Below, piece by piece: positions 22,615 to 55,300 of a stretch of DNA of 64,000 nt. The notes below the pieces were generated by a model. That model did not search any database, had not been told where the DNA came from, and worked only from the letters and a program-made list of their open reading frames with translations. Made by a program: the position numbers and the translations under genes. The stretch is from Cytidiella melzeri. Lineage: Eukaryota > Basidiomycota > Agaricomycetes > Polyporales > Irpicaceae. How positions within the stretch are numbered: position 1 is the stretch's first letter; the number at the start of each line of letters is the position of its first letter. The stretch is from NCBI GenBank assembly GCA_022592445.1, contig JABYQR010000144.1:1-64000 (forward strand), given 5' to 3'.

Positions 22615-23246
22615 ATGCGTTTCAGCCACATGCTCGCTATCGCCATGGCCGTCGGCTCTACTACCGCAGTCGCCATCTCCCAAGACTCTGGGACGCCGCA
22701 CAAACTTGAGATCGCTGCTCGGTCAGGCCGCCGCGTCCGAGTCATCCCGGGGTCGATCACTCTCCGAGAGAAGCGAGACGAAGATGAAGTAGAGCAGCTC
22801 GCAGAAGGACTGGAACAGCCATCCCGCAGGTTCGTGCGAGTGTTTAGCGTGGGGTTTTTTTTTTGGCTACTTGCTTTGAACTGCATGCTGAACATGTTGT
22901 TGTGTGCTGGTGTGTAGGGAGCTGACCCATGAGAATATCGCACGTCGATACGCAGCATCTGGCGACTCCAGCAACGCAATGTCGCTCACACAGATCAGGG
23001 GCAGGGCTGAATCGAAACCTCCAAGCGATGGGGCGTTCGCACGCTTCATGCAATCTATCAGCCCCTTTGCGAAGGCGGAGCATAGTCAGTCAATTTGCTC
23101 CCTTCTTATACTTCTCATGCTGACAATGAGGAGGGCGACACGTAGAGCCCTTGGAACCCGAAGGTGACTCTAAGACCACGCCATCTCACACAGAGCATCA
23201 GAAACCAAAAACGGATCCAGAGCATCAGAAACCAAAATTGGATTGA
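22615..23246 (+). CDS. Small secreted protein, Kex2-type precursor family, paralog A
   Basis: Three exons (22615-22829, 22918-23084, 23146-23246) give 160 residues. Residues 1-20 form a signal peptide (MRFSHMLAIAMAVGSTTAVA). Exon 1 ends in a basic/acidic propeptide-like part with SGRR and LREKRDEDEVEQ. Exon 2 starts RELTHENIARRYAASGD, the family's second module. Exon 3 carries a tandem EHQKPK(T/L)D repeat and the stop. The dibasic KR/RR sites suggest processing by a Kex2-like Golgi protease. Its exons 1 and 2 resemble those of paralogs B, C and D. Exon 3 differs from C and D, and an out-of-frame copy of the usual REVAEMLKR exon lies downstream at 23354. Function unknown. Confidence 0.7.
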
Positions 23247-23353
23247 AGCATGCAAATGGCATTGGTGCAGAATCCGACAGACGGTCAGTTCCATCTCCTC
23301 CTCAGTCTGTTCCGGCTCTCATGCTGACAATTGCGGTGGTGTGGGGTACATAG

Positions 23354-27343: not shown

Positions 27344-27916
27344 AACCCGAGTATAGAGAACAGAATTGTGAGGAACGAGACACTCACACTCTGCCTTTTA
27401 TCCTCCCTGTGCGGCCACTCTTGCATCGCCGTCGATCAAGTGAATTCGAGCTGGCACAAAGGACTGTGGGCCCCGATGACAGCAAGCGCAACAATCACCT
27501 GAAACCGTGTCTGCAGAGGTGCTATTCGACGTGAAGGGCACTCACCGAACAGGCGAGCACAAAGGTAGTCGGCTAACGCAGTCGTTATTTGCTCCTAGCG
27601 GACGGGCTTCAGGCACGGTTGGCAGAGTGGCACTCTACTATTGGGGTCCGTGGTGCTGGAGGGCGCAGTTTGCAGCATCTTGAGGTAAGCCTTCAGTACT
27701 CAGTGTCGAGCATAGACAGCATGAGTGCGTTGTCGCCAACGTTGAGGGCGGTGCGAACGACGATGATAAGGATAAGCCCGGAGACGATGAGCGATGTCAC
27801 GCAATCTTTGTCTGTGACTCGCTGTGACACAGAACTTTCCATATCGGGCCTTCATTTTGGCTCGAACAAATACACGCGAAAAATCGCGACTGCAGATTCA
27901 TATGCAAAGCACTGTA

Positions 27917-29581
27917 ATCTCCCACCCAATTGTCAGCACTAATGAAACTCCGCTAGGCGCGGGCTGATGGCGGCAAACCGAGAGCTCGGCGGGGGACTTG
28001 GGTGATTTGTGAGCTTCTCAACAGCTAGTCACATAGTAATCTTAGGCAATTACATGGGACAATAAATATGACTGAAGGGTACATATTTCAGTATATAAGA
28101 GGGTACATATTTTAGTATATAAGACTGTTACATAGTGTACAAAACCTTACTGATGGCATTGTGAGTCTTCCAATTCCCCCTTTCTAGTAAAGCTCTATTC
28201 ATGCATCTGTCAGGCTCTTTGTTTATTCTGTTTGTGTTTGAAAGTTACGAGTGTAGGGGATGACTAGGAGAGTCAACTAACTCTGGGAGTAAGTGTCTTG
28301 TTATTTCTCTGCTCTCTAGGAGCTGTATATATACATGTCTGTAACTAGATTACTAATGCTACAGTAATGTCATATGAGTAAGGATTGGTAAGGATTGGTA
28401 ATCCTATGAGTAATGATTGGTAATGCACAGTCCTGCTTGCTAATACTACTGAATAGAGAATGTAAGCAATGACTGAGCATCCTACATAACTGAATGGTGC
28501 TGACTGAGCCTTTAGTAAGCTCAATACATTTGGTATATGAAATATGAGTCATGCAGAAGCCTCATGGTACTTCTGCTTATTCAGTCATGGAAACTACTGG
28601 AACACAATGCCATATGGTGTAAGTATCGCATCGTGTGTGACCATAAGGATGGTGGAATCACATGCTATGTACTATCTGATCTTATCTATCTACATATCTA
28701 ATCTACATTGTCCATAGATCTGATGTCCGATAATCAGCGATACAATCTCGCTTTGACAGTTTGCACTCTGTATTTACGAAGAGTATTCAGTACCCCGCCC
28801 GCGCAATTCAAGCTCCGGATTGTACAACATATAGAGTTCTGTACTCACCGTGTGTAAATACCAGGCCTGGGCGTGGCGCAATCAACAACGTTGTCGTCAA
28901 TAGTCGCGTTGATGGTGGTTCAAGTGTAAAAGACAGGCTGTATTGTCAGCCAAGGACGAGTGAACCAGGACGCGATTGGCTTTCCAATTTGGGCGCCGAT
29001 TGTAAATGCCCCAAAATGTACGTACCCCGACGATCACTGATTGATCTCCGTTTGGATCGAACAGTGCCAGTCTTAATTCCCACATGACTTGCATGTAAGC
29101 AATGCAAACAGAAGAAAAACCTGTGCAAGTTGAGGACAACAGAAGCATAGGCTGGCAGAGGTATAAATAGAGCTTTACCAGAAAAGAGACAGGGTGGCTG
29201 TCCCAAAGGCCGTCTAAGTAACCATGATACACTATGAAACATGTGTGAGTATGTGAGCACTGCAAACAGAATAAACAAAGAGCCTGACAGAGGCATAAAT
29301 AGAGCTTTACTGGAAAAGGAGAATTGGAAGATCTACAATGCCATCTGTGAGTTTGGTACACTATGTAACAGTCTTATAAACCAAACTATGTACTCTCTTA
29401 TATACTAAAATATGTACCCTCTTAATTATATCTACTATGCTATGTAATTGCCTAAGATTACCATATGTACTAGCTATTGATGAGCTCACAAATTGCCCAA
29501 GTCCCCCGCCAAGCTCTCGGTGTGCCGCCATCAGCCCGCGCCCAGCGGAGTTTCATTAGTGCTGACAATTGGGTGGGAGAT
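27917..29581. mobile_element. Foldback-type element, 1665 bases, with about 300-base inverted repeats
   Basis: The ends are ATCTCCCACCCAATTGTCAG and its complement. The inverted similarity continues inward for about 300 bases (27917-28235 against 29270-29581). It includes the GTTACATAGTGTAC block and TTTGTTTATTCTGTTTG. TA flanks both sides (27915-27916, 29582-29583). No frame in the 1-kb centre resembles a transposase, so it is probably non-autonomous. Near-duplicates of a TAAATAGAGCTTTAC segment occur at about 29163 and 29296. Confidence 0.8.
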
Positions 29582-29657
29582 TAACGTCAAGTGTGGTGGC
29601 TCTCTCCTACTGGCACGCGAAACAAGAGACCCGTTTCTTTCTCTCCCGGAAGAAAAC

Positions 29658-29736
29658 GAAACAGGTTTTCCTCCCATCTCGGGATCACTTGCAGTGCATT
29701 TGTCTCAGGCACACGGCACTAGGGTGTGTACATAAG
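29658..29736 (+). promoter_or_regulatory. Conserved promoter block and TATA-like box of paralog B
   Basis: GAAACAGG through TCTCGGGATCAC at about 29658-29688, then TACATAAG at 29729-29736, as in the other paralogs. The composite transposon insertion ends only about 57 bases upstream of this block. Confidence 0.65.
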
Positions 29737-29891
29737 ATGTTCAGAGTGTCAGTTGCTTTCTATCCAGGCCGAGCCCACACTCTTCAGCGTTTTTTATATA
29801 TCCTTTTCTCCTCAGGCACTGGTTGGTGAGTCCGCTGTCAACCACTGGTATACGCAAATTGCTCAAGCAACTCTACCAGCCCCCCCTCGTT

Positions 29892-29892
29892 C

Positions 29893-29936
<44 letters not shown>
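29892..29936 (+). repeat. (CAA)n repeat in the 5' UTR of paralog B
   Basis: About fifteen CAA triplets immediately before the leader's last bases and the ATG at 29954. Paralog A has only a short CAACAATAACACTAACAC at this place, so the array expanded in B. Confidence 0.9.
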
Positions 29937-29937
<1 letters not shown>

Positions 29938-29953
29938 CAAAACTGGAATCACC

Positions 29954-30676
29954 ATGCGTTCAAGCTACATGCTCGCTATCGCCATGGCCGTCGGCTCTAC
30001 TGCCGCAGTCGCCATCTCCCAAGACTCTGGGACGCCGCACAAACTCGATTTCGCTGCTCGGTCAGGCCGTCGCTTCCGAGTCATGCCGGGGTCGATCACT
30101 CTCCGAGAGAAGCGACACGAAGACGAAGTCGAAGTAGAGCAGCTCGCAGATACGCCCGAACTGTCAGCCCGCAGGTTCGTGCGATTGTTGATCATTTTTT
30201 TGCACGGGAGGTTTTTCTTTTCGTTTTCGTTTTCGTTTTTGTGTTTGTTTTTGTTTTCTTGCTATTTCGGTTTGACGTTTGATTGCATGCTGAACATGTC
30301 GTTGTGTAGGGAGCTGACCTATGAGAATATCGTCGCTCGTCAAGACGTAGCGTCCGACGACCTCAGCAACACAATCTCGCTCGCACAGTCTATCCGGGGC
30401 AGGGATGAGATCCCTACCACGACCACGCCGAAAACAGGCAATTGGATCAAAAGCTTTTTGGAGTATTTCCGCCCCTTAGGGCATGTTGGTGAGCTAATTT
30501 GCTCTCACCTTTTTTTTTCTCTTTCTTTTTTCCTTTTTGACTTGGTCATGCTGACGATGAGGGGTATTGGCGACATGGTAGGGAGGCCCGCGAAGCGCGA
30601 ATTTGAAGGTGTAAAATCCGCCGACTCTGGCGACGAGGCATTTTACGAAGGAGGGCTTTCCAAAGTCCCGGCTTGA
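29954..30676 (+). CDS. Small secreted protein, Kex2-type precursor family, paralog B
   Basis: Three exons (29954-30174, 30310-30488, 30582-30676) give 164 residues. Signal peptide MRSSYMLAIAMAVGSTAAVA, then SQDSGTPHKLDFAARSGRR, an LREKRHEDEVEVEQLAD propeptide-like part, the RELTYENIVARQDVASDD module and a C-terminal exon with PAKREFEGVKSADSGDEAF. The KR and RR sites match paralog A. It is close to A in exons 1 and 2 and in intron sequence, so the pair is a recent tandem duplication. Exon 3 ends at a TGA that aligns with the stop of A. A further module copy lies downstream out of frame. Expression may be altered by the transposons in its promoter. Confidence 0.7.
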   Translation: MRSSYMLAIAMAVGSTAAVAISQDSGTPHKLDFAARSGRRFRVMPGSITLREKRHEDEVEVEQLADTPELSARRFVRLLIIFLHGRFFFSFSFSFLCLFLFSCYFGLTFDCMLNMSLCRELTYENIVARQDVASDDLSNTISLAQSIRGRDEIPTTTTPKTGNWIKSFLEYFRPLGHVGELICSHLFFSLSFFLFDLVMLTMRGIGDMVGRPAKREFEGVKSADSGDEAFYEGGLSKVPA

Positions 30677-30789
30677 TGCAGGCAGCATTTGGTGGCACAA
30701 CAAACGGCAGACGGTGAGTTTCAGTCTTCTTCCCTCAGTTTGTTTTTGGGGTTTCCATGCTGACAATCGCGGTGGTGTGGGGTATACAG

Positions 30790-30871
30790 GGAGGTAGCAG
30801 AGATGCTGAAGCGAGACGCAGCATTTTTTGACTCCATCGACGTGTATGATCACTCTTACTTACACCAGTAA
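30790..30871 (+). pseudogene. Orphaned REVAEMLKR exon downstream of paralog B
   Basis: After a TACAG acceptor it reads REVAEMLKRDAAFFDSIDV and YDHSYLHQ to a stop. It aligns with the orphan exon after paralog A and with exon 3 of C and D. A mini-exon with a GTGAGT donor at about 30713 precedes it. It could be used only with a splice that changes phase. Confidence 0.5.
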
Positions 30872-31109
30872 CCATCGGACATCCATCGCGGATTATTAGA
30901 TAGTGCGTGTAGGATATAAAGTTTCAAATGTGTCGTTCCTGCCATGGTTATCATCCCCGTTAAGCAAGGATCTTGTCTTTGACCGCAGGGCACACATGCC
31001 GTATGGTTCGTAGAAAGGAGAGTTGTCCGGCTTGCGAGTGATTTACATGAACCCCTTTGAGCCGGAGCTCGAACTTGAACTGCGCTGCGTCACTTGCCAG
31101 TGTACCTTG

Positions 31110-31200: not shown

Positions 31201-31637
31201 ACCCCAAAAAGTGCGTATCTTTTCGTCTCCATTTTTTTCAGCCCCTCCGGATGCTGCGACTCGACTCTTGCGCAGTGAGTGAAACTTGAACATCATGCTG
31301 AGGGCCCCGACGACCGCACCATTATCCACACCTTACTTACTCTTACCCCCCGACGCCCTTCGTTGCTTGCGCGTTATGATTACGCGGTAGCATCTCGCTT
31401 TCGCAAACAATAATATATATTCTGAAAACGATCGTCAAGTCAATATAAAAACCACTGTGACTTCCTATACACCCCACACTACCGCAATCGTCAGCATGAG
31501 AGCCGGGTCAAACTAAGGAGAAGTCGAACTGTCCATGTGCCTGCTTGCTTTCTAAAGAATTGATCATACAGTGCCTTATGAGGTCAGGACGCGTCGCTGT
31601 GCGAGTCGCCGGATGCTACGTCTTGGCGCTTCAGCAT
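31201..31637. other. Gap between the lectin relic and paralog C
   Basis: Mostly structureless. The segment 31582-31637, read on the minus strand just after the stop of paralog C, encodes another degenerate module (MLKRQDVASGDSHSDAS then stop). Only a 14-base GTGAGGAGGGTTAG separates it from exon 3 of C, which looks like a collapsed intron. Confidence 0.5.
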
Positions 31638-32170
31638 CTAACCCTCCTCACCGCCTAGCGACTTGTCGATTTGATTATCAACACCAAAGAAATCCCTAAA
31701 GGCCTGCTTAATTGAGAAAGCGCCGCTGGAGTCGCCGGATGCTACGTCTTGCCGCCTCAGCATCTCTGCTACCTCCCTGTGTGCCCCACATCAGCATGAG
31801 AAAACCGCCGGGAACAGACTGCGTAAGAAAGCTGAACTCGCCTTCTGCTGGCATGATACAAATTTTCGTGAAGCAAGCTGTGGACATCGACTGCATCGAC
31901 GTCTTGACGCACAATGTTCTGATAGGTCAGCTCCCTGCACATCAGCGTGCAATACGGTCTTCAGCATTTGCAGATATCGAAAAGAGTATAAAACACTCGC
32001 ACGAACCTCCGGGCTAGTTGTCCGAGTGCTTCTGCAAGCTGCTCTAGTTCGCGGACGTGGCGGGTGGACCGAGTCACGGTATCAAATTGATGCCGAAAGC
32101 CAGAGTTTCGGGAGATGGCGACAGTAGAGCTGATAGCCAGGGCGATAGCGAATATGTAGGTGAAACGCAT
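31638..32170 (-). CDS. Small secreted protein, Kex2-type precursor family, paralog C
   Basis: Three exons (32170-32007, 31934-31842, 31776-31638) give 131 residues in frame. Signal peptide MRFTYIFAIALAISSTVA, a shortened acidic/basic part ending LEQLAEALGQLARR, module RELTYQNIVRQDVDAVDV and module REVAEMLRRQDVASGDSSGA. The C-terminal end is AFRDFFGVDNQIDKSLGGEE and one more residue. The second intron starts with GC (GGCGAGTT) instead of GT, as does the matching intron of paralog D. It lies beside a decayed copy of the beta'-COP gene, mirroring paralog D and the real gene. Secreted, function unknown. Confidence 0.7.
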
Positions 32171-32377
32171 GGTGGTTGAGTTTATGTGTGGATTGGGTGA
32201 CTGAACGAGGGGGCTGATGGAGGGGTGTAAGTGATTTGTGCGTGGTGGAGACAGTGACACCTCAAGCTTTCATTTTGACTTACCAGCCAGTGCCTGAGGA
32301 ACGAAGGACGAACAAAAAAACGCGGAAGAGTGTGGGCACGGCCTGAAGGGAAACCGACTCACAGACTCTCTGACCAT

Positions 32378-32490
32378 CTTTTATACATCATGCATCATGC
32401 ATCAGTAGCCATGACTTGCAAACACCTGGATCCTTGGGGGGCTAAAACAATTGCTCTATCCCGACATAGGAAAAGATCAAACCTGTTTCA
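32378..32490 (-). promoter_or_regulatory. Conserved promoter block and TATA box of paralog C
   Basis: On the minus strand, GAAACAGGTTTGATC leading to GTCGGGAT (about 32460-32490) and then GTATAAAAG (32378-32386). This has the same order and spacing as in A, B and D. The 5'-UTR intron donor here is GGTAAGT. Confidence 0.6.
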
Positions 32491-32799
32491 TGTCTTGCGA
32501 CAGTCGCGCAATCACCACTTTCCGCAGGTTCATGATTATGGGATGGTAAGGAATAGTCCAATCAGCCTCACCACCTTTAAACGTGGAGACTAGTACTCAC
32601 ACTGCAAACAATCCATCCGGATATCAGCCCATCGAGTTTCGAACCGTCTTGCCAGGTTGATGGACATAGGTATGGACAACAGTGGTGGCACCGATCATGA
32701 TGGATCTTGCTAAAACATGATGGATGAATGCGTGAACGTGAATGAAGAGCTAGGGACGAGCTTAGATCTCTGACATTGCCCCACAAAACACACTAGATA

Positions 32800-33800
32800 A
32801 AATTAGGTGCTGTACGTGCCAAGTAGAAACAATCGTAGGTGCTGCGGAGGTCGTAGATGCGACTGCTGTTAACCACGAGAAGTTGTCGATAATCTGAGGT
32901 TCACAAAGTCAAAAAACTTGCGGTCTAATAGCGGTAACGGTGGGTGTTGCTTGTCGACTCCCGCAACATAGCACGGTCATTCCAGCCCTCTTCGTAAAAG
33001 TCTGCCGGCGGAATCAGCTAGCGCACTCGCCCACGCTGTGACTGCCGCGGGCATTGTGATGGGTGCGTACGCGGTCCGATGCGAACATCGGCGCCCTTTC
33101 AGTCTTGATCAAGAGATGCAGCGAACGCGGTCTTGTTTCGCCCCCTTTCCTTGCTTCAAACCGGTCTGAGATCCATGGACGCAGTTGGAGCATGGAAGGC
33201 ACGCACCGGCATTTACAACTATCCCGCGCCAGGTCGAAACGCCATGCCACCAAAGCACGATCGCCAATGATTTATGGCCTCCCACCTTGTCTCAGCCTCG
33301 ACCTCTGGCACTGTAAGCGCACACTTGACATCAGCGTCCCAGTCGAACGAACTTGCAGCCGGGGTCTGTGGTGATATGCAGAGCAAGCTCATCTCATATC
33401 TTCGGTAAACATTATCAATCATCAGGCCCATCCGCAACGAAGCTCAAAAACAAACCTCTGCCTTCCAAGAAGGTGGCTACCTTGTTTCGTTGGTAGGAAT
33501 TTATTTCATTTGCAGACTCCATGTCGCCTCGAAGCACCGCGGTTTGAGACTCGACGAGACTCACATGATGATAGCGAGTAGCTGTAGATGTTTACATGTT
33601 TGGCCTGCGAGGTAAACGCGGTTGTGCGCGAGGATGTAACCAAGCTGATACAACGGTCTATCCAAATATATATTATTGTAGTTTGCGTTTTGCACTGAAA
33701 TAAATGCCACTTACTGGTCAAAAGGATCTGAACTCTCTTCTACGAGATTATGTAAACGCCTCCTCCACGCCCTCGTTGTCCGTTGGGGCACCCTGCTATG
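32800..33800 (-). pseudogene. Decayed partial copy of the beta'-COP gene (3' half)
   Basis: Several stretches match the intact gene at 41170-42490, including the region with AWRFDLARDS, the LLIKTERAP segment, the DVNIYSYSLS segment and the GGGGCACCCT region. Deletions, frameshifts and stop codons break it throughout. It starts near the last coding exon and ends around 33800, so only the C-terminal alpha-solenoid part was copied. It is adjacent to paralog C in the same orientation as the functional pair. Confidence 0.82.
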
Positions 33801-35793: not shown

Positions 35794-37879
35794 ATGCATC
35801 CCCTCTTGTCTTCTCTCTCCACTCTCCAATGTCTTGTTCTCGCGATATCCGTCTCTCTTGCATATCTCGCCGTTCTCGTCCTTTACCGCCTCTTCTTCTC
35901 CCCTCTCTCTGCCATCCCAGGCCCATGGTACGCCGCCGTCTCTGACCTTTGGATTACCAGCCATGTCGTTCGCATGCAGCAGTGCAAGACCGTTCAGGCT
36001 CTCTTTGAACAGTACGGTCCCGTCGTACGTATCGCACCGAACAAGGTCGCATTTTGCGACGCCACCACCATGAGGAGCGTCTACTGCCTTCACAAATTCG
36101 ACAAGAGTCCGTTTTACAAGGCTCTGCTCACGTACGTCTATTCATACTCTACGCGACTCTCGCACTCACTATGTCCTAACAGGAACAACAATGACCACGC
36201 GTGAGTATCGAGCACCTGACCAGAGCGCCTGTAGGCGGCTGACCACGCTTCTTTGTAGCATGACAACCCTTCCTCACGCCGAACACACCATTCGCAAGAA
36301 GAGCTACTCTCCGCACTACATCCCGTCCAACCTCGCGCTTTTCCAGCCAGAACTCCAGGATTTCTCTCTCAAGCTCACCGATGTGCGCCACTCTTCTCGA
36401 TCTGTTATTTTTTGCAGCTCACATCTTTTCCGCTCAGGTTCTCGAGCGTATCGCTGGTAAAACTTCGGTTGAGAGCCTCGACTTGTTCCGCCACTTTATG
36501 GTCGATGTCATCTCTTGCACCGTATTTGGCACCCGTAGCGGCTCTCTTGAGAACTGGGCTTCCAACGTTCGCGATCCCGTCACTGTCGCCGTGTACGATT
36601 TTCCTACGCGTGGTGTCCTCGTCAGTCTCATCTCAAACGCAGTCTGTTTTGTTATTGATCCTTTCGTCAGCGTGGCGCAGTCCCATCGTGGGCGTGGAAC
36701 CTTGTCTGCCGTATTCCTAACGAGCGAGTGCGCGAAGTTTGCAACTCGGACAACATCATGGCCGAGGTAAGCGTAACCCGTTATCCAATCGACGTCTTCT
36801 CACGCGCATACATGTACCAGTTTGTAGGAGCCCGGTTATACGAGACACGCACCAACATTCAAGCCGGCAAGGTCGGGCTTGACGGCGATGCTGACAAGAT
36901 GCCTCTCATTCAGCGCATGCTCCAATATCGTATCTTGTCTACCCATGAGGGTATGTGCGACCAAGATGTGATCTCTGAAGCGATGGGACACCTGTCAGTC
37001 CTAGTTTCTCTGACGATGCTGAACAACTTGTGCTAACAAGACGTGTGTCGTAGTATTGCTGGCGTCGACACTTCCTCCCTGTCCCTCTCCTACATGTTTT
37101 GGGAGCTAAGCCGCCGTCGCGACATCATGCAGCGCCTCCAATCCGAGCTAGATGACGCAATGTCCGACAGGAAGGTTGTCCCGGATATCAACACCCTTAT
37201 GCATCTTCCGTACCTCAATGCCTTCATCAAGGAAGGTAAGATCTATCTGTCTTGTCTTAAGCATCTTTGTGTGATCCTAATACATCTTTGAGTAGCTTTG
37301 CGCATTTACGGTGCTGCCCCATCGCTTCTCGAACGTGTCGTACCCTCCCGCAGCTGCGGTGCTGTTTCCAAGGCTGATGAGGACTTTGATATGATGGGTT
37401 ACGCGCTCCCTCCTGGTACCGTCGTGTCTACTCAAGCCTGGAGCATGCACCGCGACGCCGAAATCTTCCCCAGCCCTGAGACCTTTCTCCCGGAGAGGTG
37501 GTTGGCCGTCGATGGTTCTGACGCAGAAGATGAGAGGCTCAGTCGGTGAGTGGAAGGTCATTTATTTCGCGGGTTCAGTTGCCAACGTTCTGTTCTAGTA
37601 TGGCTCAGCAGATGATTCCCTTTGGAGTCGGCACACGTGTCTGTGGCGGCCAGAACCTTGCCCAGATGATCCTGAGGATGGTTGTCGCAGTCACTGTCAG
37701 GAACTTTAACGTGTCTGCCAAGGCCGAGGAGACGAACGAGCGCAGCATGGAAATCCGAGATGCATTCGTGAGTTCTTCGAATATTGGCTTGTCGATCTTT
37801 GATCTGACGTCGGCCAACGCAGACCATTTTCCCCGCTTCCAAGGAGTGCAAGCTCACGTTTACTCCCCGAGCTCACTAA
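35794..37879 (+). CDS. Cytochrome P450 monooxygenase
   Basis: ER-anchored haem monooxygenase. The N-terminus is a membrane anchor (CLVLAISVSLAYLAVLVLYR) with the hinge SPLSAIPGPW. The I-helix reads TIAGVDTSSLSLSYMFWELS. The K-helix ExxR is EALR, spliced at about 37235/37296. PERW follows, and the haem loop FGVGTRVCGG contains the axial Cys. About eight introns are present, including an 18-base micro-exon (36182-36199) that restores frame between KALLT and AMTTLPHAEH. All P450 hallmarks are present, so it should be functional. The stop is at 37877-37879, after ECKLTFTPRAH. I cannot name the CYP family. It lies between the secreted-precursor paralogs, which may or may not matter. Confidence 0.88.
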
Positions 37880-39002
37880 ACGCTCGCGCTGCCGCGCAAT
37901 CATACCCCGTCTTGCAAGCTCAAGGCGTCCGTTGTCCCCGCTCCTCTGTGTTCGTTGTCGACATGTTATCCAAAAGCGCTCCTTGGACCGGTCTCCGTGG
38001 TCGCCACAGCTTTCCTACTCGCTCTCCTAGTTTTCTTGGTTGATACGCCTTGTTGTCATGTTTTTGTCACGCACCGCCATGCCCTCGCGGGCGTTACAGC
38101 GGCGAACGAAACGGGGCTTTTGTCGTAAGCGTCTGTTCGTCTCTCCCCTCACCACCCCCTATTCGACGGTACTCGCCGCTGTTTGACAGAGGCTGTGGTC
38201 ACTGGTGGTGCCTCATGCACTGGGAGAGGCAGATTGCGTAATGTCGTAGATGCTTTGTTGTATGTTATTACCCGTAATAATTTTCTTGTACTGTATGTAC
38301 AAAAGTCACTCGTTTGAACATACGAATATAATATTTTTATTCTTGGATTCAAGGATGTCTGTGGCAGGGCAGTGGCGAGATTGTGTGTGGCGTGAGTGCC
38401 GTCAAGTCACGATGTCCCCTTGTTTCTGAGTGGGATGTTCCTCATCAACGCCACCAAACAATCAGTACAGAGATGGTTCCTGTCCTTGAGATCTGCTACT
38501 TGTGGCGCAGATCAGTGGCACTCGAGCAACATCTGTGGAGCTAGTAAATCTGTTCGAGAGAAAGGCTATAGCAGGCCGTTGCGAGGGTGTCTCGACGCCC
38601 AACGACTTGCAAGCTAGTGTTGTCACTCGGATCACGCAGTTGTTCACCTCTTCGGTAAGGTAAAGTATTGTTGCCAGTGGGGGGCCTCTCCAAGTAAATA
38701 AAACAAAATAAAACAGAACAGGAAAAACAGGATACAAATGTGTATGTACGTGATGTTCCTTGGTTCGAAACTTCGTCGCAGAAAGAAAGAAAGAGAGAGA
38801 AAAAAAGAAAAGAAAAGAAGTCCATATTCGTATCCGTATCCGTTGATGCTCGTTCGCTGTTGGAGGTTGTCAGCTTGGATAGAGAGAGGGAGAGGGAGGG
38901 GAAAGAGGGAGAGGGAGGGAGAGGGAGAGAGGGAGAGGACTTCTCACCGTTTCTTGCTTTTCCGTTTTTCTTGTGGTATGGATGGGACGAGAAAAAAGAT
39001 GG
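37880..39002. other. Gap between the P450 and paralog D, GA-rich
   Basis: Convergent 3' ends. Strongly purine-biased tracts of GA and GGGA type occur at about 38776-38820 and 38880-38940. A similar tract has expanded inside the last intron of paralog D (39100-39165). No credible exon is seen. Confidence 0.5.
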
Positions 39003-40506
39003 CTAGTTGTCGTCGTCTTCGTCGTTGTCTTCGTCTTGGCGCTTCTTGGGAAATCCTACAATATTCCCCACCCAAATGTCGTTCAGTCAGTCGAACGCAA
39101 GAGAAGGCAAGGCAAGGGGAGGGGAGGGAAGGGGAAGGGAGCGGAGGGAAAGGGAAAGGAAAACTCACCGCCTGGTGGGAGGTCATCTAATTTGGTAAAG
39201 CGATGGCTAAAGAGGGAGAACGCGCCGCTAGCAAGGTCGTCTTCGTTGTCGTCGTCGTCGTCGAATGCCTGATGCGCGGCTGCGGCTTCTTGACGCTTCA
39301 GCATCATCCTTGCTAGTACCTCCCTGTGTGTTATATAACCCGCACATAATCAGCAATGGAAAAACCGGAAGACAACAATTTTGGTGTCACTTGCCGTTTG
39401 TCTGCTTGCGATCCGGAATAGTAGTCGTACAGGGCTTTGTGGAGCGCGTCGTCGCCGCTGCCGCCGTCTTGGCGTTTCCGCGACACGTACACTCCTACGA
39501 TATTCCCCGCCAATAGTCAGTCGGTCATCCATGAAAAACAGCCGCGAGGGTGATTTTTTGAAGAGGGGACTCACCGCCGGATGGCACGTCATCTTTGCTG
39601 AAGGCGTGACCGCCGAAGAGGGAGAACGCGCCGCTAGCAAGGTCGTCTTCGTCGTCGTCGTCGAATGCCTGATGCGCTGCTGCGGCTTCTTGACGCTTCA
39701 GCATCTTTGCTAGTACATCCCTGTGTGTTATAACCCACAGAATCATCAGCAATGAAAAACCGGAAGACATCAAGTTTGGTGTCACTTACCGTTTGTCTGC
39801 TTGCGTTCCGGAATAGTAGTCGTGCAGGGCTTTGTGGAGCGCGTCGTCGCCGCTGCCGCCGTCTTGGCGTTTCCGCGACACGTACACTCCTACGATATTC
39901 CCCGCCAATAGTCAGTCGGTCATCCATGAAAAACAGCCGCGAGGGTAATTTTTTGAAGAGGGGACTCACCGCCGGATGGCATGTCATCTTTGTTGAAGGC
40001 GTGACCGCCAAAGAGGGAGAACGCGCCGCTAGCAAGGTCGTCTTCGTCGTCGGATGTTGCTGCCTCTTGGCGCTTCAGCATATCTGCTATCTCCCTATAT
40101 AGCCCACATTACCGCAACATTCAGCATATAAATTAGAAGAGACTGTGGTGAATAAGAACTCGCCGTCCACGAAAATGATTCCACACCGGATCGTTGGCGA
40201 CGTCACGACGCGCAATGTTCTCATGGTTCAGCTCCCTGCACATCAGCACGCAATATACAAGTTCAGTATGCATGTCAAGGGATACGGCCAAAACACCCGC
40301 ACGAACCTGCGGGCTAGGTTACCCAGTGCTTCTGCGAGCTGATCCACATCGTCACGCCTCTCTTGTAGCTGATCCTCGTGATCGAGCAACTTCGAGGGGA
40401 CGCGGCGAGCAGCAATATCAAGCTTATGTGGAAAGCCAGATCTCCGGGACATGGCGACTGTAGAGCCGACAGCCATGGCGATAGCGACTACGCAGGTGAA
40501 ACGCAT
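39003..40506 (-). CDS. Repetitive secreted Kex2-type peptide precursor, paralog D
   Basis: Eight exons (40506-40307, 40235-40164, 40094-39970, 39889-39790, 39720-39575, 39494-39395, 39323-39169, 39055-39003) total 951 bases: 316 residues and a stop. Signal peptide MRFTCVVAIAMAVGSTVA; propeptide with QERRDDVDQLAEALGNLARR; then two alternating modules. The long module recurs three times (MLKRQEAA..., acidic run, DDLASGAFSLFGGHAF, KDD, PSGG). The short one recurs twice (VYVSRKRQDGGSGDDALHKA, then YYSG, then ADKR). A final PKKRQDEDNDEDDDN closes the chain. Every module is bounded by KR followed by Q, as expected for Kex2 cleavage and release of Gln-starting peptides. Introns 2 and 6 use GC donors. 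The exons are phase-matched (2/1 and 1/2), which lets them duplicate without frame loss. Function unknown. Confidence 0.78.
39100..40095 (-). repeat. Tandem exon-intron repeat of about 395 bases
   Basis: Exon starts 39889 and 39494 are exactly 395 bases apart, and 39720 and 39323 are 397 apart. Exons and introns are nearly identical between copies; the 80-base intron differs at about one position. The duplication is therefore recent and included introns. The first long module (40094-39970) has a shorter acidic stretch, and the last (39323-39169) has diverged at its end. Confidence 0.88.
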
Positions 40507-40720
40507 GGTGAATGGGTTCGCTTTGTGAGTAGATTACAGGAAAGTGTGGAGTGGGTGATTGAAGTTTGAACAAGGGGCTGATAGAGGTGCGTGAGCGTTT
40601 TGTGCATGGGTAGAGAGAGTGGCACTTCACTCACCAACCAGTGCCTTGGAATGAAAGAATGAGAAACGATGAAGAGTGTGGGCTCGGCCTGGAGGGAAAA
40701 GCGACTGGAACTGTGACCGT

Positions 40721-40859
40721 CTTATATACATAGCCAGCCCCGTGAAAGCACATGGCATGTATTACATGCGATACAGTGGCTATGTGCTGAGAGGCTGAGA
40801 CAAACATTCTGCAGCAGGTTCCAGTGATCCCGAGACAGGAGAAAATCAAGCCTGTTTCA
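40721..40859 (-). promoter_or_regulatory. Conserved promoter block and TATA box of paralog D
   Basis: On the minus strand, GAAACAGGCTTGATTTTC leading to GTCTCGGGATCAC (about 40824-40859), then TATATAAG (40721-40728). Next come GGCACTGGTTG and a GTGAGT 5'-UTR donor near 40640. The acceptor ATCAG lies before CCCCTTGTTC. The layout matches A, B and C. Confidence 0.7.
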
Positions 40860-41197
40860 TGTTCTGGGAGAGTTAGAGAATGCTCGTCGGGTAACTTCCC
40901 GCACAGTTACCAAATTTGTGACGTTGACATGATAGTCTCATCAGCCTCACAGTCTGACAATGTGGAGACTGGCACTCACACTGCCAAAAATGCACCCGCA
41001 TCGCATCGCACGGCATTGTGAGGAAGTTTTGCAATTGCCGAGCTGAAGTATGGACATCAGTGGTGGCACAGACCGTGATAGATCTTGCTGAAACGTGATG
41101 TACGAAGAGCTGAAGACGAGACCTTGATAAATCTCTGACAATGTCCTCCGAAACACACGAAATAATATTAGGTGCTGTACGTGCAGTGTTAGAACAA

Positions 41198-44100
41198 TTA
41201 TGCGTCTACGTAGTCGTCGTCGTCGTCTTCTGTAGGTGCTGCAGAGCTCATAGATGTGACGGCTAGTGACAACGACGATTTGTTAATAACTTGAGGCACA
41301 CAAAATAAGGGAACTCACGATCTAACGGCAGAGGTGGGTGTTGCTTTTCTGCTGTCGACTCCCGCGACACAGCGTCTTTCCAGCCCTCTGCAAACAAGTC
41401 TGGAGTCTCGACAGGATCAGCAAGAGCACTCGCGATCTTACCACGCCCCTTCGCCTGTAACTCCAATTTCCACGCTGTGACTGCCGCGGGCATTTTGCTG
41501 GGTGCGTAGGTCCGAGCAAACATCGCGGCTTCCGGCGCTCTTTGAGTCTTGATCAAAAGGTCGACACACTCGGCGGGTTTGCCGATTTGCAGCAACGCAG
41601 CAAACGCGAGGTTGTTTTGCCCCTTTTCCTCTAAACAGGTGTGAGATGCCTGGGTTCAGTTGAAGCATCAAAGCACGTACCGGCCTTCGCCGCGACCTTT
41701 GCGAGACCTTGACTATCACCAATGGCAAGCAGGAGCAGCATCAGGGCATTGAGATCGTTGGCTTTTTCGTAACTATCCCGCGCCAGGTCAAAACGCCATG
41801 CAGCCAAAGCACGGTCGCCAATGGCCTTCCACTTTATCTCAGCCTCGAGCTCTGGCACTGTGCGAGCAATCTCGACAGCGGCGTCCAAGTCGTCGAGTTG
41901 TAGTGACAAGTCGAACTTGTGGTCTGGGTCTGTGGTAATTTGCAGAGCGAGCTCCTTCATATCTAGGGCACAAGTTTTATTGCAGGCACCTGCGCAGCGA
42001 AGCTCACAACTGACCTCTGCCCTCCAAGAAGGTTGCCACTTTGTTGCGTTGCTCTTTTGGGATGTTGGGAAGTATTTCATTGGCAGCCTCCATATCGCCT
42101 CGAAGCACGGCGGTTTGATACTCGACGAGACTCAATGATAGCGAATAGCTGTAGATGTTCACATCTTTGTCTGCGAGGTAAACGCGGTTGTGTGCAGGAA
42201 TGTAGCCAAGTAGATATAACGGCCTATTCATATGCAGCTGAATGTAGCTTGCGTTTGGCGGAACGAAGACACTCACTGGTCAAGAGGTGTGATGCTGTAC
42301 GACTCTGAGCCGACAAAGTAGTTGAGGCGGTTTGCTCCGTTTGTGTAGATGAAGCAGTCTCCGACCCACTTCGCAGTCTTCACACTGCGGCTATGTCAGT
42401 AAAGAACCAATTAGCTAACGCAAGGCTTACTTACCTCTCCGAAATCTCCGCCACGAGATCAAACGCCTCCTCCACGCCCTCGTCGTCAATTGGGGCACCC
42501 TCCTCTAGCTTCGCGTTGTATGCATCGCGATCAAAGCGAAGCACGTAGTAAGAGTCTTCCGCACATAACGCGACAAGTTCTCCGGTTCCTGACCAGAAGA
42601 TCTATGTGGTCGATCAGCGTGTCTTCCATGAGGACATACAGCTATATTTGTTCACGTTTTTTGCGTCAACGTCTATCCTGCGCACAATCTCACCCGACTC
42701 CCAGTCCCAGAATACTACAACGCCAGACCCCCTTGCACCAAGCAAAGGTCCTCCATGCAGGCCGTCCAGTGACCATGAGCCAGCTCCTTTCATCGGTGCG
42801 CCGCTACGCTCCTTGAAGTTCTTGAACACTCGAACCTTTGTCCGGCCTTCCAAAACCGCATACGTGTTCGAGTCTCCTGCCCACGCAAACGAGCTCCCAT
42901 TACCGAACGCCTTGTTCCGCCATGCAAGGGCAGTGTAGACAATGTACTCTCCGTCACCCACAACAGTGACGAATCGTCCGTTTGGAGAATGACTGATAGA
43001 TGTAGCAAAGATTTCTGTGGTGCCTATCTCCTTGATGGCCACCGGTATTCTGTTACCGTCAGCTACTTCCGCGTCTCCAATCGTCTGCACATTCGCTGAC
43101 AACACGGAATTGGTGCGCGTGTAGATGAGCTTGCCAGTGGGGTCCATGCTGAAAGAAGGTTCGTCGCGACCTAGCTAGTAACGGGCAGGCTGAGAAGGGA
43201 ACCTATAATCAGAGTGAACAAAACTCACTTTCACAACAATGACACCCTCGTCGTATCCTACTGCAACCTCGTTGGTGCTCTTGCGCAGAGCGACACACCA
43301 CGCTCTCTCCAGCGCGTAGCTCAGGGTGTTTTCGAGACGGTAGGTACCACTATTCCACAGCTTTACAGTGCCGTCTTCACCACCGCTAATTATGAGAGGA
43401 AGGGTAGGGTGGAACACAGCGAAAAGAACGTTGTTCGTATGGCTCTCCATGGTTTGAACGCAGCTCTTGCTCAAATAGTCCCAAATCTTGACGGTTTTGT
43501 CGTCGCTGGCTGTCACGAGATATGGCTTGTCAGCTCCGGGGTAAAACTCGACATAGTTGACACCCTTGTCGTGTGCTTCCATGGTAAAGTTGGCGGACGA
43601 TGAGCCGAGGGACCACATTTTCACCGTGCGATCCAAACACGCGGAGGCGAAGGTATTGGTATCTTTCGGGTTGACGGAGATATTCATGATATAGTGCGTG
43701 TGTCCCTCGTATGTCTGAATGGGATCATGCAAGTATCAGCACGACGGGAACCGTAATCGGGACACTAGGCGCACTTGAATACATCTCCACTGTTTGTCCC
43801 AGTCCCATGCCTTGATCGTCATATCATCACTTCCGGTCAAAACAATGCTTGCGGTAGGATGCACAGTCAAGCAGCGGATATAGTCTGGGTGGGCCTCGAA
43901 AGTGGCCACCTTTTCATGCGTATTGTAGTTGAAGACGCGTAACTGGAAATCATCGGAGCCAGCTACGAACCAATTTTTGCGAGGAATGAAGCGAACACAT
44001 CGGACGGGGACATCAGCGACTTCAAATGTCTTCACCAGGGAGCCCGTTTCGTGGTTGTAGATGTTGACCGAGCCGTTGTAGAGACCGGTGAGCAGCCACG

Positions 44101-44226
44101 GCTCCGTCGGATGGAAATCGACGCCTTTGACGCGATCCGAGCGAGTGAATAGTTTCCTCTGCAATTCAACTCAGCACAGACAGTTTGCACAGATTCCAAG
44201 CTACATACGTTGACGTCCAGGAGCAT
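41198..44226 (-). CDS. SEC27: Coatomer subunit beta' (COPI coat)
   Basis: WD40 and alpha-solenoid subunit of COPI that binds dilysine cargo tails in Golgi-to-ER traffic. A tiny first exon (MLLDVN, ending 44209) joins RKLFTRSDRVKGVDFHPTEP. Recognisable blades follow: LLTGLYNGSVNIYNHETGSL, RVFNYNTHEKVATFEAHPDY, TGSDDMTIKAWDWDKQW, FASACLDRTVKMWSL, TASDDKTVKIWDY and SGGEDGTVKLWNSGTYR. The second propeller and solenoid include KVRVFKNFKE, YLLGYIPAHNRVYLADKDVN and AWRFDLARDSYEKANDLNAL. The end is the acidic EDDDDDYVDA with the stop at 41198. About a dozen short introns. Its 3' half was duplicated to 32800-33800, where it has decayed. Confidence 0.93.
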
Positions 44227-45141: not shown

Positions 45142-48100
45142 ATGGCTTCGCCAGTGATTCCGCCTACTACCCCACCGGTTTCGCCTCCATCGAGGCCGTC
45201 GTCACCTTCACCTTCTCGGAGCGGGCTCCGTACGCTGGCACGTATGGGTACCATGCTCAGACGAAACTCTTCTGGCTTTGGCTTCGGTCGTCAGTCTCTC
45301 TCTCGATCGCAATCCAAGAGCTCTTTGCGCGGAAAGGAAGCATCCTCTGATGAAGCTACTGCTCTACCTAGCCCAGTCGCAGAATCTCCTGTTCGCGAGG
45401 CTCAGGCCAACGCAACGGAGACATCTGTCCAGGCTGAGCCTTCACCTCTTTCACAGGAAATCAAGACTGCTGCCGACGCTTCTCCAGCCCCTGTCGCTGT
45501 ACCCCCTCTCACTGCTGAGCCCGAACCCGTCGTTACGTCCACACCTCAGCAAGCCGAGGTAGCCTCAGAGCCCGCAACAGAGAAAGAGTCGGTCCCAGTC
45601 TCCGAGGTCGCGAGTGCTACTGTCGCGCCTGAGCCGGCGCCGGAGAAGCGTGTCGTCGTTGTCTCTCCTAGTGAGGAAGTTGTCGCGAGTCCAAATTACA
45701 TTTCCAACTCGATTGAAGCCACGGGTCCAACACCTCCTCCCGCCACTGAAGAGCGAGCACCCGATTACTTCGCATGGAGCGATATGCCAGAAATTGCAAA
45801 GAAGAAGCCGTCTGCGTCCTCACTGGCAGCTGACAAACCTGCACCTACCGTAGCTGCTCCTGAACCTCCAGCAGATGTATACGCATCTGCTCCTACGCAA
45901 CTACCTGTGACGGCAGCACAGGAAGCTGAACCTGTCAGCCAAGTCGTTCCTCCTCCTCAAGTCCAGCAAGCTCCTGTAGACCCTTACGCAGCTTCAGCAG
46001 CAGACTCCTTTGCCTGGAAGGATGACGCCTACGTACCCAAGGCGGTGGGGAAGCAACCATCTCGCGAACAGTTTGTCGCTTCGCCAGAACAGACCACCAT
46101 AACCCTGTCAAGACCCCCATCGCGTGAAGTCCTTGCCGCTTCTCCACGTTCGGTCGCTATTACGTTGTCCCCTAAAGCAAGCAAATCTTCGCTTGCTTCG
46201 TCATATGGGCAGGTCGCCAGCGCCTCCTCTGGTAGGAGACGTGTTTCGGTCTCTCTCGATCCCGAAGAAGGAAAGCGTGGGCGTAGTAGCTCTAGGCAAA
46301 GTATCCGGTGGGTGCATATATTGCATTATGTTGACACAGAGTACTCAACATTTGCCGCTTCTGTGATGCAGGATTCAATTCGAGGATAACTACGCCGATC
46401 CATTTGCAGACCCGCCAGTCAGCAACCAGATGGCTGTGCCCAAGCACGCTCTTTCGCCAATCTACAGCGTTAATTTCCCCGAGTAAGCCTGATAAACTTG
46501 CTTTCGCTATTTGGGTAATGACCTCTTATAGTAGTACGGAGGTGACACCGGCACCAATGACTGAAGCACCAGAGTCGGTCTTTTTCCCACAGCCTGGGAC
46601 ACAGGCTGCTTCAGAGAAAATGCCGACACCAATATCGATGCCTCTGCCCTCATTGAATGAGGTCTCCGCCTCTAGGTAAGTTCACAGCTGACAATCGTTC
46701 GTGATAACCACCTGATAGCCGCTATAGGACAATACGTGAGGTACCTTCGGCATATAGCATCGGTCAGAGCACAACTGGTCCTGTGGATCACGCGCCACGT
46801 GAGACTGAGTGAGTCCCAGATTTCCCAAAACCACAAACGATATGTGCTAAGATCACGTTCCTCGCAACAGTGAACGTCTCCCTCTTCTTCCTCGAGGAAT
46901 GCCGGTCCCAGATATCGGCGCCTCAAAGGCACCCGTCGAACCGTTGGCATTCAACGACATCGACATCACTATCCATCAGTCCAGAGGAATGCCTTGGCCA
47001 TCTATGGATCGCAGCTATAAGACTCTTGGCTGGGTCGAACACCTTCTCCCTGATAGCTCGCTTTACTACTCTCATCGCAACCTCCGAGTGGTCACCGAAG
47101 TCGATTTGCGTAACGCCAAAAAGCTCGAAGCTGTCTCGCAATACTTGGACAAGAAGCGACCAAGCGAGCCAGCTCTCCCGCCACCAGGGTGGGAACTATG
47201 GCTCCGTGATAACAGCAAGTTGGCATTCGACTTTATCCCGGTTCAGTGCTGGATTAGCCATAAAGACCGGATCTTGACTATGGACCCGCCGATGACGCCT
47301 GCTGGGGAGATTGTCGCAGGACTTTCGGATGATGACCGTGAGTGTCTTGGTTGTTCATGCGACATGCTGCTGGTCCTCATGATGTTGTTTAGGTGTCGAC
47401 GTGGAATATCGGTACTGGACCTATGTCGAGAGCCACCCTGCCCATGAGCCTCTGCCGGCCAACGCTCATGCCGAGGCATTGGATGCGCTTACTTGGTGTT
47501 ATACAGGTATGTGTAGTCAAGGGCCTGATCGGCAAGAATCACACAGTCGCGCTATGCATGATTCCCCGCCGAAACAGATGATTCGGCGCTGTCTTCCACA
47601 GTGACCTGTTCCGCTTTGGCGGGGGGTCATAAGGCGACTATAGCATGCGGAGCCGATTAGGCCATAAAGCGGAGGTCTTTCAGTGCTGATACGTTTTTTT
47701 CAGAATGTTTGCTTCCTTCGGAGCGGACTGTCCCTCCAGCATTCACTCCTCAAGAGTGTCAAGAACTCATGACCCTCTTGAAGGCAGGCAGTAATGGGTC
47801 TCCGGGCAACACCATCGTGCACAACCGTATCGTAGCACGAGTACTCTTGCGTCAAGGTCCGCGCAAATTCTGTTCCGCTCCTTCCACGTATTGACTCTTT
47901 ACCAGCTCAATGGCGTCAACACTACTTCCGCCCGGCAAAGCCTCTTCCCAATGAGTTCAGCAAAGGCCCTGTCCCTCAGTCTGCCAATCGTCGTATGACG
48001 TTCCGCCGCGCTGTTCTGGACGTCGTTATGTCGATCCTGTGCCTTGGTATACCTTACTTGTTCATGGACCGCTCAAATCGCCATCGTGTAGATGAAGAAA

Positions 48101-52314: not shown

Positions 52315-55300
52315 TTATGACTCGGAGAGAATCTTATCAATAGAGTCATTGAGAAATTTTCTGCGAGACGACAAATCAGCTTTAGGGAACTTGGCCTGAA
52401 TTGCTTCACGAGCAGTCCTAAGGAAAGTGGTTCAGTACCCCGATTAGAGTGAACCGAGAATTGAATACTCACTTCTTCGTCACAGTCATCAGGTCCTGAG
52501 TACTAAGATGATTGCGAAGAGCGGTGAACAGATCGTCGTCGCTGGGATTAGGATCGTTGCTAGGTCCAGCAAAGAGGTTCACAGAAGTTGCCATCGAGAA
52601 TGTCGACATGGGTCTTTGCTGGTCTTGAAGACCGGGCGCCATCGGAGGGGCAAATCCGGCCTGTGAACCGGTGGTGTCGCCGCCGAACATGTTGAGGTTA
52701 GTCATGACTGTGTTGCGCGGAGCCATGGGGGGCATCGTCGGAGGCATCATCCCATACATGCTGCCAGTACCTTGGTAAGGGATAGGTCCAGGCATTGGCA
52801 CATGTCCTCCATAATCTGAGCCAGCGATAGTACCAGGACCTCCGCCAAAGGGCATGAACGGTAATTGTGGAACAGCGTATTGTGAGAGCGTCGGTTGAAC
52901 ACCTTGGCGCGAGTGAATGCTGCCCGCCGGGCGCGAATGTGCACTTGATTCATTCTTACTGAAGGGATTGCCATCGCGATAGTAATCTCCTCCGGACTGC
53001 GAAGGATGGAAGCTAGCTGGAGACTCGGCTCGAGAACCAGGTGCCCGCGAGCGCGAGCGCGACCGTGGTTTGCTCTCATAGCCTGTTTCTTCCGACTGAC
53101 GAGACCCTGTTTCCCACGCTTCAGCCTCATACTCTGCAAAATCATGGCATTAGCTCATCGTGCTGAACATGCATCCAATACACTCACCGCTAAACTTTTT
53201 GAGAGGTATCATTGAATCATCAAACTTCTCGTCGTCATTCATCAAGACCTTCTTGTTGTTGCCTTCGCCAATCACAAGACGCGTGTTACCCCAACTGAAG
53301 TCGTCCATGCACCAGAAGGAATACATGGGTAGGAGGAAACTATACACCGGGTAGCTAGAAGATAGAGATGAGGCAGCGCCTCAAGCCACAGCAGAGGACT
53401 ACTTACGAGAGGATATAGACCACCATCCAGCCAACTAGCATGAACTCTCGCTTGATGATGAATATGAGCGCCTGTCAAACGGTCAGCGTGATAACGTGGG
53501 GCTTTATGAAACTCAATCACCTGTAGACCATACACAGCTGCAATCATGACAAGGGAGATGATTGGCACTGGGGCTTTACCAGTAGCGACAATGATAATGA
53601 GGTAGACAAGCTGCGAGAAGAATAAGCCTCAATTACGTTAGAGCAATCTTACGACCTACGTAGACCACAGTGGAAGGAAGAATCTTGGAGGGAAAGGATT
53701 GAGAACGCGAGATAGCTAACCAGATGGGCAAAATGTTACTCACCAGAGTACCAAGAAGGTCAATGAAAACAAAGAATCGCATGGAGAAACAACAAAATCC
53801 GAATAGCTCTGGAAGGAAGACCAGCTCGCACAAGTTATGGATTGTGGAGTTGATCCAGCGACGACGTTGCGAGAACAGTACTCTCCAAGACTCCGGTGCA
53901 ATCGTATGTGCCAGTGCATCGGGGTTGAACTTTGTCCGGAAAGTCGGGAAATGCTTAAGCATGAGGGTCGTAAGGTAACGATCTTCACCAAGAGAAAGCA
54001 AATTCTTCTTGTGCAGCGTATCGACGTTCGGCTCTGCGTATTCCTCGATGATACGGTTTGAGATGATGATCGGACGCCCCTTGTCCGCCGTACGGATACG
54101 ATACATGGAGAAACACCCAGGAAGACAGGTGACTGAACCGAAAAGACTCTCGAATGCTTTCGAAAGATGATGCGAGATGTAATACTCATAAACCTGGCAC
54201 GTATTATGAGTTTATGGGATCAGCAGAGGACAGCAGACATACCTGAATCATTGTCCACCAAGAACCCTCCTCATTGTCAAGCTTTGTTTCGCCACAGATG
54301 CCGATGATGCTCGAATCGTCCGCAGCTGAAGCAACAAGACGATTGAGGGAATCCGGAGTAACAGTCTACATCCACTGTCAGGCCCCTTCGGCTCCCCAAA
54401 GAATCACGACGACTTACTGTGTCTGCATCCACAGTGAAGATATACTCATAGAAGGCCGGATCGATCCCAATAACGTTTCTCATCTGGTGGTAAATTTCGA
54501 GCTCCAGCGGACACATCGGCGAGTCAAAGTGTACGCGGTTGAGATATTGCATCACAAGAATCTGACTATCACGCTTGCCACGGTTTCCCGGCTTCGTGCG
54601 TTCCGTCGGTTTGCCAACCTTGACGACGACAATATACGGCACGACATGACCCTCGAATTCGTATAAGCCGGAGTACACCTTGCCGTAGTTGAGCTGCTTT
54701 GAGCCTTCGCCGATGGATTTGAACAGAAGGGGTTCTGGGTCCAGCTTAGGATCTATGCCCAGAATGTCGAGCACAATCCTTGGAGTGGTCCGGTCGTTCC
54801 CAGTGCCAATGATGTTACCATCACAGATCAGGAACATCAGCTTACGCTTATCATCGTAGTTGAGCGCGGACAGAGAGTCGATGGTTCGGCGCAGGGACTC
54901 CTCTCCTTCCGTGTAGCACGGTACCTGGCATATCACGAACTTGTCCAGCATCTCCGGATTCCTTTTCGGGGACAGCTGCAGAGCGGCCAAGACTGTTGAA
55001 AAGATTAAAGTGCGAAGATCATGATTGATGTGGTATGCTTACATTTCAGGCCAATCGAGGCCATGAGCACGATGGAGACGGCAAGAAGGAGGAAGTTCTG
55101 CACCTGACAGCGAGCGGTTTTACGGAAATCCGGCTCGCCTATGTAGAATGCGTTATTCAAGCAGACAGTGTGCTCTTGTCTTGTAGCTTCATCCATTGCA
55201 CTCAGCACCGCCTCCATAGGTTTGGTGATATCTTGACCGATGCGCTGGGAGAACAAATCTGAGACACTCTTGTTCAAGAACGCGTATTGGTCTCCGAGGT

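Follow-up and report, generated by a model that had tools for sequence, protein, structure and literature searches.

We propose that the gene K1 of Cytidiella melzeri, as read from its sequence, probably encodes a Kex2-processed repeat precursor of the KEP type, from which several copies of two acidic peptides are predicted to be released. K1 is located on the minus strand of the 64,000-nucleotide stretch analysed here (the window), from the ATG at 40506 to the end of the stop codon at 39003, so the interval 39003-40506 of the original prediction, for which no strand had been named, runs exactly from stop to start. The clean 316-residue frame from eight exons that had been claimed there was recovered: the exons, of 200, 72, 125, 100, 146, 100, 155 and 53 nt, join into 951 nt, that is 316 codons and a stop, with no internal stop codon. 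The intron phases are, in order, 2, 2, 1, 2, 1, 2 and 1; five of the seven introns are GT-AG and two, introns 2 and 6, are GC-AG. The parts of the gene needed below are the following.

40307..40506 (-): exon 1, with the ATG, a hydrophobic N-terminus (a signal peptide predicted from hydropathy) and a propeptide with RR sites.
40164..40235 (-): exon 2, propeptide, 24 codons, phase 2 on both sides.
40095..40163 (-): intron 2, GC-AG (GCGAGT..ATATAG), with a GCGAGT donor identical to that of intron 2 in the paralogue K2.
39970..40094 (-): exon 3, the spacer EIADMLKR and most of the first A core.
39790..39889 (-): exon 4, the end of the first A core (VYVSR-KR) and the first B core, QDGGSGDDALHKALHDYYSGTQAD-KR.
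39575..39720 (-): exon 5, the spacer DVLAKMLKR and most of the second A core.
39395..39494 (-): exon 6, the end of the second A core and the second B core, QDGGSGDDALHKALYDYYSGSQAD-KR.
39324..39394 (-): intron 6, GC-AG (GCAAGT..ACACAG), the matching intron 4 having a GT donor.
39169..39323 (-): exon 7, the spacer EVLARMMLKR and most of the third A core.
39003..39055 (-): exon 8, a degenerate third B exon, KKR-QDEDNDEDDDN-stop.

One deposited model was found for K1 (P0001, BC835DRAFT_1521700, Cytidiella melzeri, 292 aa), in which the intron 6 junction is used and exon 2 is omitted. The deposited K2 model, P0003, agrees exactly with our splicing of K2 and keeps the homologous exon 2 together with its GC donor. 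Since exon 2 has phase 2 on both sides and the K1 frame holds with or without it, splicing may leave this exon out of some transcripts, or the annotation may have overlooked it.

Following the leader, the protein is organised as A-B-A-B-A-b, with A in exons 3, 5 and 7 and B in exons 4 and 6, and each A core finishes in the first codons of the following exon. The two alternating module types, three long and two short, that had been described before are thus borne out, and a degenerate third B is added to them. An alignment of exon 8, extended by the end of its intron, to the exon 4 region scores 25, above the maximum of 15 among 1000 shuffles, which argues for a shortened third B. The predicted fragments comprise A cores of 39, 45 and 45 residues with a calculated pI of about 4, two B cores of 24 residues, the spacers DVLAKML and EVLARMML, and an acidic tail; tyrosines are found in the VYVSR motif of A and the DYYSG motif of B. 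Within the 316 residues there are 13 KR or RR sites, five RR up to residue 76 and eight KR from residue 98. At six of these KR sites (residues 98, 139, 174, 221, 257 and 304) the next residue is Q, and KRQ marks every core start, the short tail included. The original prediction had placed KR followed by Q at every module boundary, and this stands for the core starts but not for the KR sites closing the B cores (165 and 247), after which D or E stands at the head of the spacer DVLAKMLKR or EVLARMMLKR. In 20,000 shuffles of the protein the mean number of KRQ was 0.055 with a maximum of 2 (6 observed), and that of KR was 1.35 with a maximum of 7 (8 observed).

The structure of P0001, predicted from this one sequence, has a mean pLDDT of 51.3 and a pTM of 0.20, with none of the 292 residues reaching 90. 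Helices were predicted in the B cores and the spacers following them (10-residue block means of 54-82) and in part of the propeptide, and pLDDT is below 50 across the A cores. The model shows no confident folded domain, which fits a precursor better than a folded protein and is a weak sign of disorder. The single match to a solved structure (E 0.54) was dismissed.

K1 is likely to have expanded by the copying of a two-exon cassette, in which the A exon runs from phase 2 to phase 1 and the B exon from phase 1 to phase 2, so that an A+B pair could be added without breaking the frame. A DNA repeat of 299 nt, 97% identical and spaced by 395 nt, is found at K1. Comparing cassettes 1 and 2, the A-B intron is identical at 79/80 positions, the B exon at 98/100, the A exon at 113/125 with 21 further gap columns, and the B-A intron at 59/69. 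Because introns and B exons are near-identical between cassettes, the duplication appears to be recent and the array young. The gap totals between the A exons are 21, 30 and 9 columns, all of them multiples of three. The two cassettes differ with dN 0.061 and dS 0.107 (dN/dS 0.56, 74 codons), and the second and third A with dN 0.076 and dS 0.270 (dN/dS 0.28, 47 codons).

A genome search with exon 1 of K1 at E up to 10 gave at least three relatives (five candidates were scored), all of them within the window. They are listed with a gene fragment adjoining one of them.

31638..32170 (-): K2, exons 32170-32007, 31934-31842 and 31776-31638, with one core, QDVASGDSSGAFSIKQAFRDFFGVDNQIDKSLGGEEG; deposited as P0003, 131 aa.
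29954..30676 (+): K3, whose conserved leader precedes a different core and, after it, a EFEGVKSADSGDEAF.. fragment bounded by KR; deposited as P0002.
22615..23246 (+): K4, exon 1 at 22615-22829 and exon 2 from 22918, the end placed by eye from the deposited protein P0004.
33217..33797 (-): a broken partial coatomer-alpha-like copy beside K2, matching 41771-42287 at 75% and 42438-42504 at 80% identity.

The N-terminus of the deposited K3 protein differs from the conserved leader ATG at 29954, possibly through a model error. No repeated cores were seen in K2, K3 or K4; the second KR-bounded fragment of K3 is unlike its core, and K2 has a second MLKRQDVASGDS stretch just beyond its stop. Since remnants of the MLKR module (REVAEMLKR / MLKRQ) lie beyond the deposited ends of K2 (31593-31655), K3 (30788-30823) and K4 (23352-23390), these genes may once have been longer or may have decayed. 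The surroundings of K2 repeat those of K1 (31897-33797 and 40198-42504), the coatomer-alpha piece included. A coatomer-alpha-like gene flanks K1, with COPA/B domains in 41631-44170, and in the copy beside K2 the protein match shifts frame inside a stretch that is open beside K1. Because this broken piece adjoins K2, it is likely that a segmental duplication made K2 and that the K2 block is the derived copy. A direct duplication (22273-23642 and 29593-31074, about 76% identical) carries K4 and K3. The locus would have been duplicated as a block, perhaps with the help of mobile DNA, leading to paralogues which share the leader and carry different cores. Neither these paralogues, nor the degenerate third B, nor the GC-AG introns were part of the original prediction.

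Other features of the window are a DDE transposase fragment with a helix-turn-helix (Pfam HTH_32 and DDE_3) at 24180-24890, between K4 and K3; inverted copies at 27915-28234 and 29263-29583, 88.5% identical; a chitin synthase with a myosin motor at 53633-59015 (-) (Chitin_synth_2, Cyt-b5 and Myosin_head); and a self-inverse repeat of about 170 nt at 62898-63066, which shares 75% identity with its own reverse complement and matches 47520-47663 more weakly.

The comparison of the paralogues suggests that the leaders are constrained and that the cores drift at about the rate of introns, since in both pairs the leader exon has changed less than the introns and the contrast between cores and introns is not significant. 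Between K3 and K4 the identities are 194/215 in exon 1, 56/78 in intron 1, 81/123 in the core, 264/317 upstream and 281/364 in the 3' flank; between K1 and K2 they are 119/164 in exon 1, 42/72 in exon 2, 64/125 in exon 3, 44/71 and 37/63 in the introns (81/134 together) and 177/261 upstream, the core segments having been cut at approximate ends with possibly a few intron bases inside. In a set of nine uncorrected tests, the leader exon exceeded the introns with p = 0.00014 for K3-K4 and p = 0.035 for K1-K2, the core did not differ significantly from the introns (p = 0.44 for K3-K4 and p = 0.17 for exon 3 of K1-K2), the K3-K4 core was less conserved than the 3' flank (p = 0.017), and K1-K2 exon 1 was not above its upstream region (p = 0.33). 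The K3-K4 leader has dN 0.097 and dS 0.113 and the core 0.48 and 0.54; the corresponding K1-K2 values are 0.36 and 0.50 for the leader, and 0.53 and 1.49 for the core on 28 codons. The six dN/dS ratios, none of them above 1, give no support for diversifying selection on the cores, and the codon statistics gave no sign of strong selection. A common origin of the A and B cores was likewise not supported (A1 against B1, 567/1000 shuffles as high; 36 core pairs tested), nor was kinship of the K2 core with those of K1 (26/1000 shuffles as high for B1, 82/1000 for B2 taken as first sequence, and 81/1000 for A1). The core starts of K2, K3 and K4 are alike, with 0/1000 shuffles as high for K2-K3, K2-K4 and K3-K4.

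A bolder proposal, which we regard as unlikely, is that K1 works through exon cassettes to produce mixtures of peptides. The same-phase (2) flanks would let A+B pairs duplicate, vanish or be spliced out in frame, the number of cassettes and alternative splicing would fix the ratio of two unrelated peptides, the model without exon 2 being one isoform, and a fast-turning family of four genes would test new cores behind a conserved leader within one species.

The original prediction had recognised no described family for these modules and had suggested a search of basidiomycete proteomes. Among the candidates scored, our protein searches gave relatives in C. melzeri alone. Some 5.8 billion proteins were searched, with E up to 10 allowed, using K1 alone, a four-row profile (whose K4 row ran beyond the donor used in P0004) and a five-row profile of the deposited proteins, and 1, 3 and 3 proteins were returned, respectively. 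These are four distinct proteins, all from C. melzeri, with about 8000 best word-sharing candidates scored in each search. No Pfam or NCBIfam family reached the cut-off for the four proteins K1-K4, and the A+B module, searched genome-wide, matched the exons of K1 and nothing else. The family is so far known from one species. In the literature search Cytidiella melzeri was named in no paper, and no paper on Kex2 secreted peptides in Polyporales was found, nor any for the combination with Ece1; a search worded for exons gave nothing on exon-per-peptide KEPs among the matches listed.

In the processing that we envisage, the K1 protein would enter the secretory pathway through its hydrophobic N-terminus and would be cut after each KR by kexin in the Golgi, with the release of three copies of the acidic peptide A and two copies of the shorter peptide B. 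A Kex1-type carboxypeptidase would then trim KR from the C-termini, and a glutaminyl cyclase would close the N-terminal Gln to pyroglutamate; the capped B product would be pyroGlu-DGGSGDDALHKALHDYYSGTQAD together with its Y/S variant. Genes for a kexin, a DPPIV-type peptidase and a glutaminyl cyclase were searched exon by exon, and at least one of each was seen. The kexin-like gene, on contig C112, has a P-domain of 64.1 bits and a catalytic domain whose top PDB matches are three Kexin entries (E 7.3e-73 to 8.6e-73). An exon on contig C235 has 35 PDB matches, 29 of which are named glutaminyl cyclase or cyclotransferase (or -like), the best with E 4.8e-15; the plant/bacterial-type enzyme (Glu_cyclase_2) had no match in the genome search. 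A DPPIV-type peptidase domain is located on contig C191. With these three activities encoded in the genome, K1 most likely yields linear peptides capped by pyroglutamate. By analogy, these would most likely work outside the cell, as linear peptides that act on neighbours such as partner hyphae, competitors or other wood microbes.

Two other fates of Kex2-cut peptides have to be weighed against linear, pyroglutamate-ended products. Were K1 a dikaritin-type RiPP precursor, its Tyr-containing cores (VYVSR in A, DYYSG in B) would be cyclised by UstYa-family oxidases and other tailoring enzymes. A repeat precursor with Kex2 sites is common to dikaritins and K1 (PMC7329392). The genome does contain UstYa-like exons, with at least eight scored matches on six contigs; none of these eight UstYa (DUF3328) matches from the exon-wise search, a lower bound, falls on the K1 contig (C51) and so none near the gene, and VYVSR is missing from the end of the third A core. 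The 3' exon of a cytochrome P450 is found at 37534-38043 (+), convergent with K1 and about 1 kb from its 3' end, but P450 genes are numerous in wood-decay fungi and such a lone neighbour says little. This exon was the one suggestive tailoring candidate when Pfam was run on 46 ORFs outside K1-K4, drawn from the 144 stop-to-stop ORFs of at least 110 aa in the window, with nothing else and no UstYa among them; matches to Herpes_glycop_H, Cmr2_N and DUF5039 were below cut-off and were taken as chance. As no UstYa match lies on the K1 contig, a cyclic dikaritin is less likely than a linear product, and we hold it to be highly improbable. Alternatively, the products could resemble those of Rep1, that is surface-active repellent or fibril-forming peptides coating aerial hyphae. 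Kex2 cutting of Rep1 yields several similar water-repellent peptides (PMC7329392), which make amyloid-like fibrils (PMC9769878). The A core of K1 has one acidic and one Phe/Gly-rich half, and the B core, taken as a helix, is amphipathic, with moments of 0.39 and 0.50 for two lengths and 3.0% and 0.9% of shuffles as high, respectively (seven peptides tested). Against this, no helical moment is seen in the hydrophobic stretch of A (0.11, a value reached by 56% of shuffles), the A cores are acidic, and relatives in one species only are not what would be expected of a general hyphal coat, so we judge a Rep1-like function improbable. Because the Kex2 step is common to the KEP, dikaritin and Rep1-like readings, the probabilities which we attach to them overlap.

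The remaining alternatives dispense with the peptides. K1 could be a secreted acidic protein that acts whole, with its KR sites uncut in vivo, and its content of Asp and Glu (64 of 316 residues) is in line with this. Such a role would leave unexplained why KR is kept across all copies and KRQ stands at all six core starts, and it sits poorly with the prediction from one sequence, where no confident folded domain was seen; we give it very little credence. K1 could also be a duplicate array that is decaying or has no function, with a frame that survives solely through the recency of its duplications. A K3-K4 dN/dS near 1, the confinement of the relatives to one species, the broken coatomer fragment in the K2 block and the module remnants beyond the ends of K2-K4 are consistent with decay. 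It appears improbable for K1 itself, since all seven introns keep the frame across eight exons, the A exons differ by gaps in multiples of three, its own copies show dN/dS values of 0.56 and 0.28, the leader exons surpass the introns in conservation in both pairs, and deposited models exist for all four genes K1-K4. The Kex2-processed repeat precursor put forward in the original prediction is thus upheld as the best reading, with the testable features of a KEP found in K1 and a kexin gene present in the genome.

If this is correct, K1 stands for a further peptide family, found so far in one species, and preserves the traces of a growing Kex2 precursor, in which near-identical introns mark recent cassette duplications; the paralogues K2-K4 display a leader that is kept and cores that are replaced. 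The precursor would couple two different peptides at a fixed ratio, a testable case among KEPs, and would supply defined peptides to be sought in a fungus of the polypore order.

KEPs were defined by Le Marquer 2019 (PMC6339444), surveyed by Umemura 2020 (PMC7329392) and studied by Vogt 2022 (PMC9769878), and K1 fits this class. Cutting after KR and RR would give at least four fragments, as the class demands, and at least three similar predicted fragments of 8-100 aa between Kex2 sites make up at least 15% of the protein. For secretion, which the class assesses with SignalP and TMHMM, hydropathy alone shows in K1 the N-terminal hydrophobic segment expected of a signal peptide, the six highest 12-residue windows starting at residues 2-7. 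KEPs, like K1, have several similar KR-bounded fragments, sometimes of more than one repeat type, and often have no homologue elsewhere; two or three repeat types are described in 79 of 1193 (PMC6339444). K1 is the less surprising because multi-repeat-type and homologue-less KEPs are already common. In Coprinopsis cinerea, which has a putative glutaminyl cyclase, many of the confirmed Q-starting KEP peptides are pyroglutamated, and six kep knockouts are described as having no visible phenotype (PMC9769878).

Among single systems, the basidiomycete precursor 497993 resembles K1 as predicted in giving different Q-starting peptides from one precursor, found pyroglutamated in that case, and by its description it is set apart by at least 13 homologues in other agaricomycetes (PMC9769878), whereas none was found for the K1 family outside C. 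melzeri. Rep1 of Ustilago maydis is, like K1 as predicted, one Kex2-cut repeat protein giving several related peptides; as judged from the K1 sequence, the acidic A core, with no helical hydrophobic moment, would set K1 apart from it. Dikaritin precursors (ustiloxin, asperipin-2a) share with K1 the signal peptide, which in K1 is predicted from hydropathy, the Kex2 repeats and sometimes more than one repeat type (asperipin-2a), and differ from K1 in that its contig has no UstYa match and its cores have 24-45 residues, which is long for a dikaritin. The STE13 signature (XA/XP) of alpha-type pheromone precursors is absent after all eight KR sites of K1, where QE or QD follows six times and DV or EV twice; one of the five RR sites in the leader is followed by VP. 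A word search through the main texts of PMC6339444, PMC7329392 and PMC9769878, the three papers on KEPs, gave no occurrence of exon and a single one of intron, in a cloning method, and Polyporales is absent from the main texts of the first two. It is in its exons that K1 departs from the KEPs described there: a single exon carries most of each core, and duplication takes place by cassettes of two exons.
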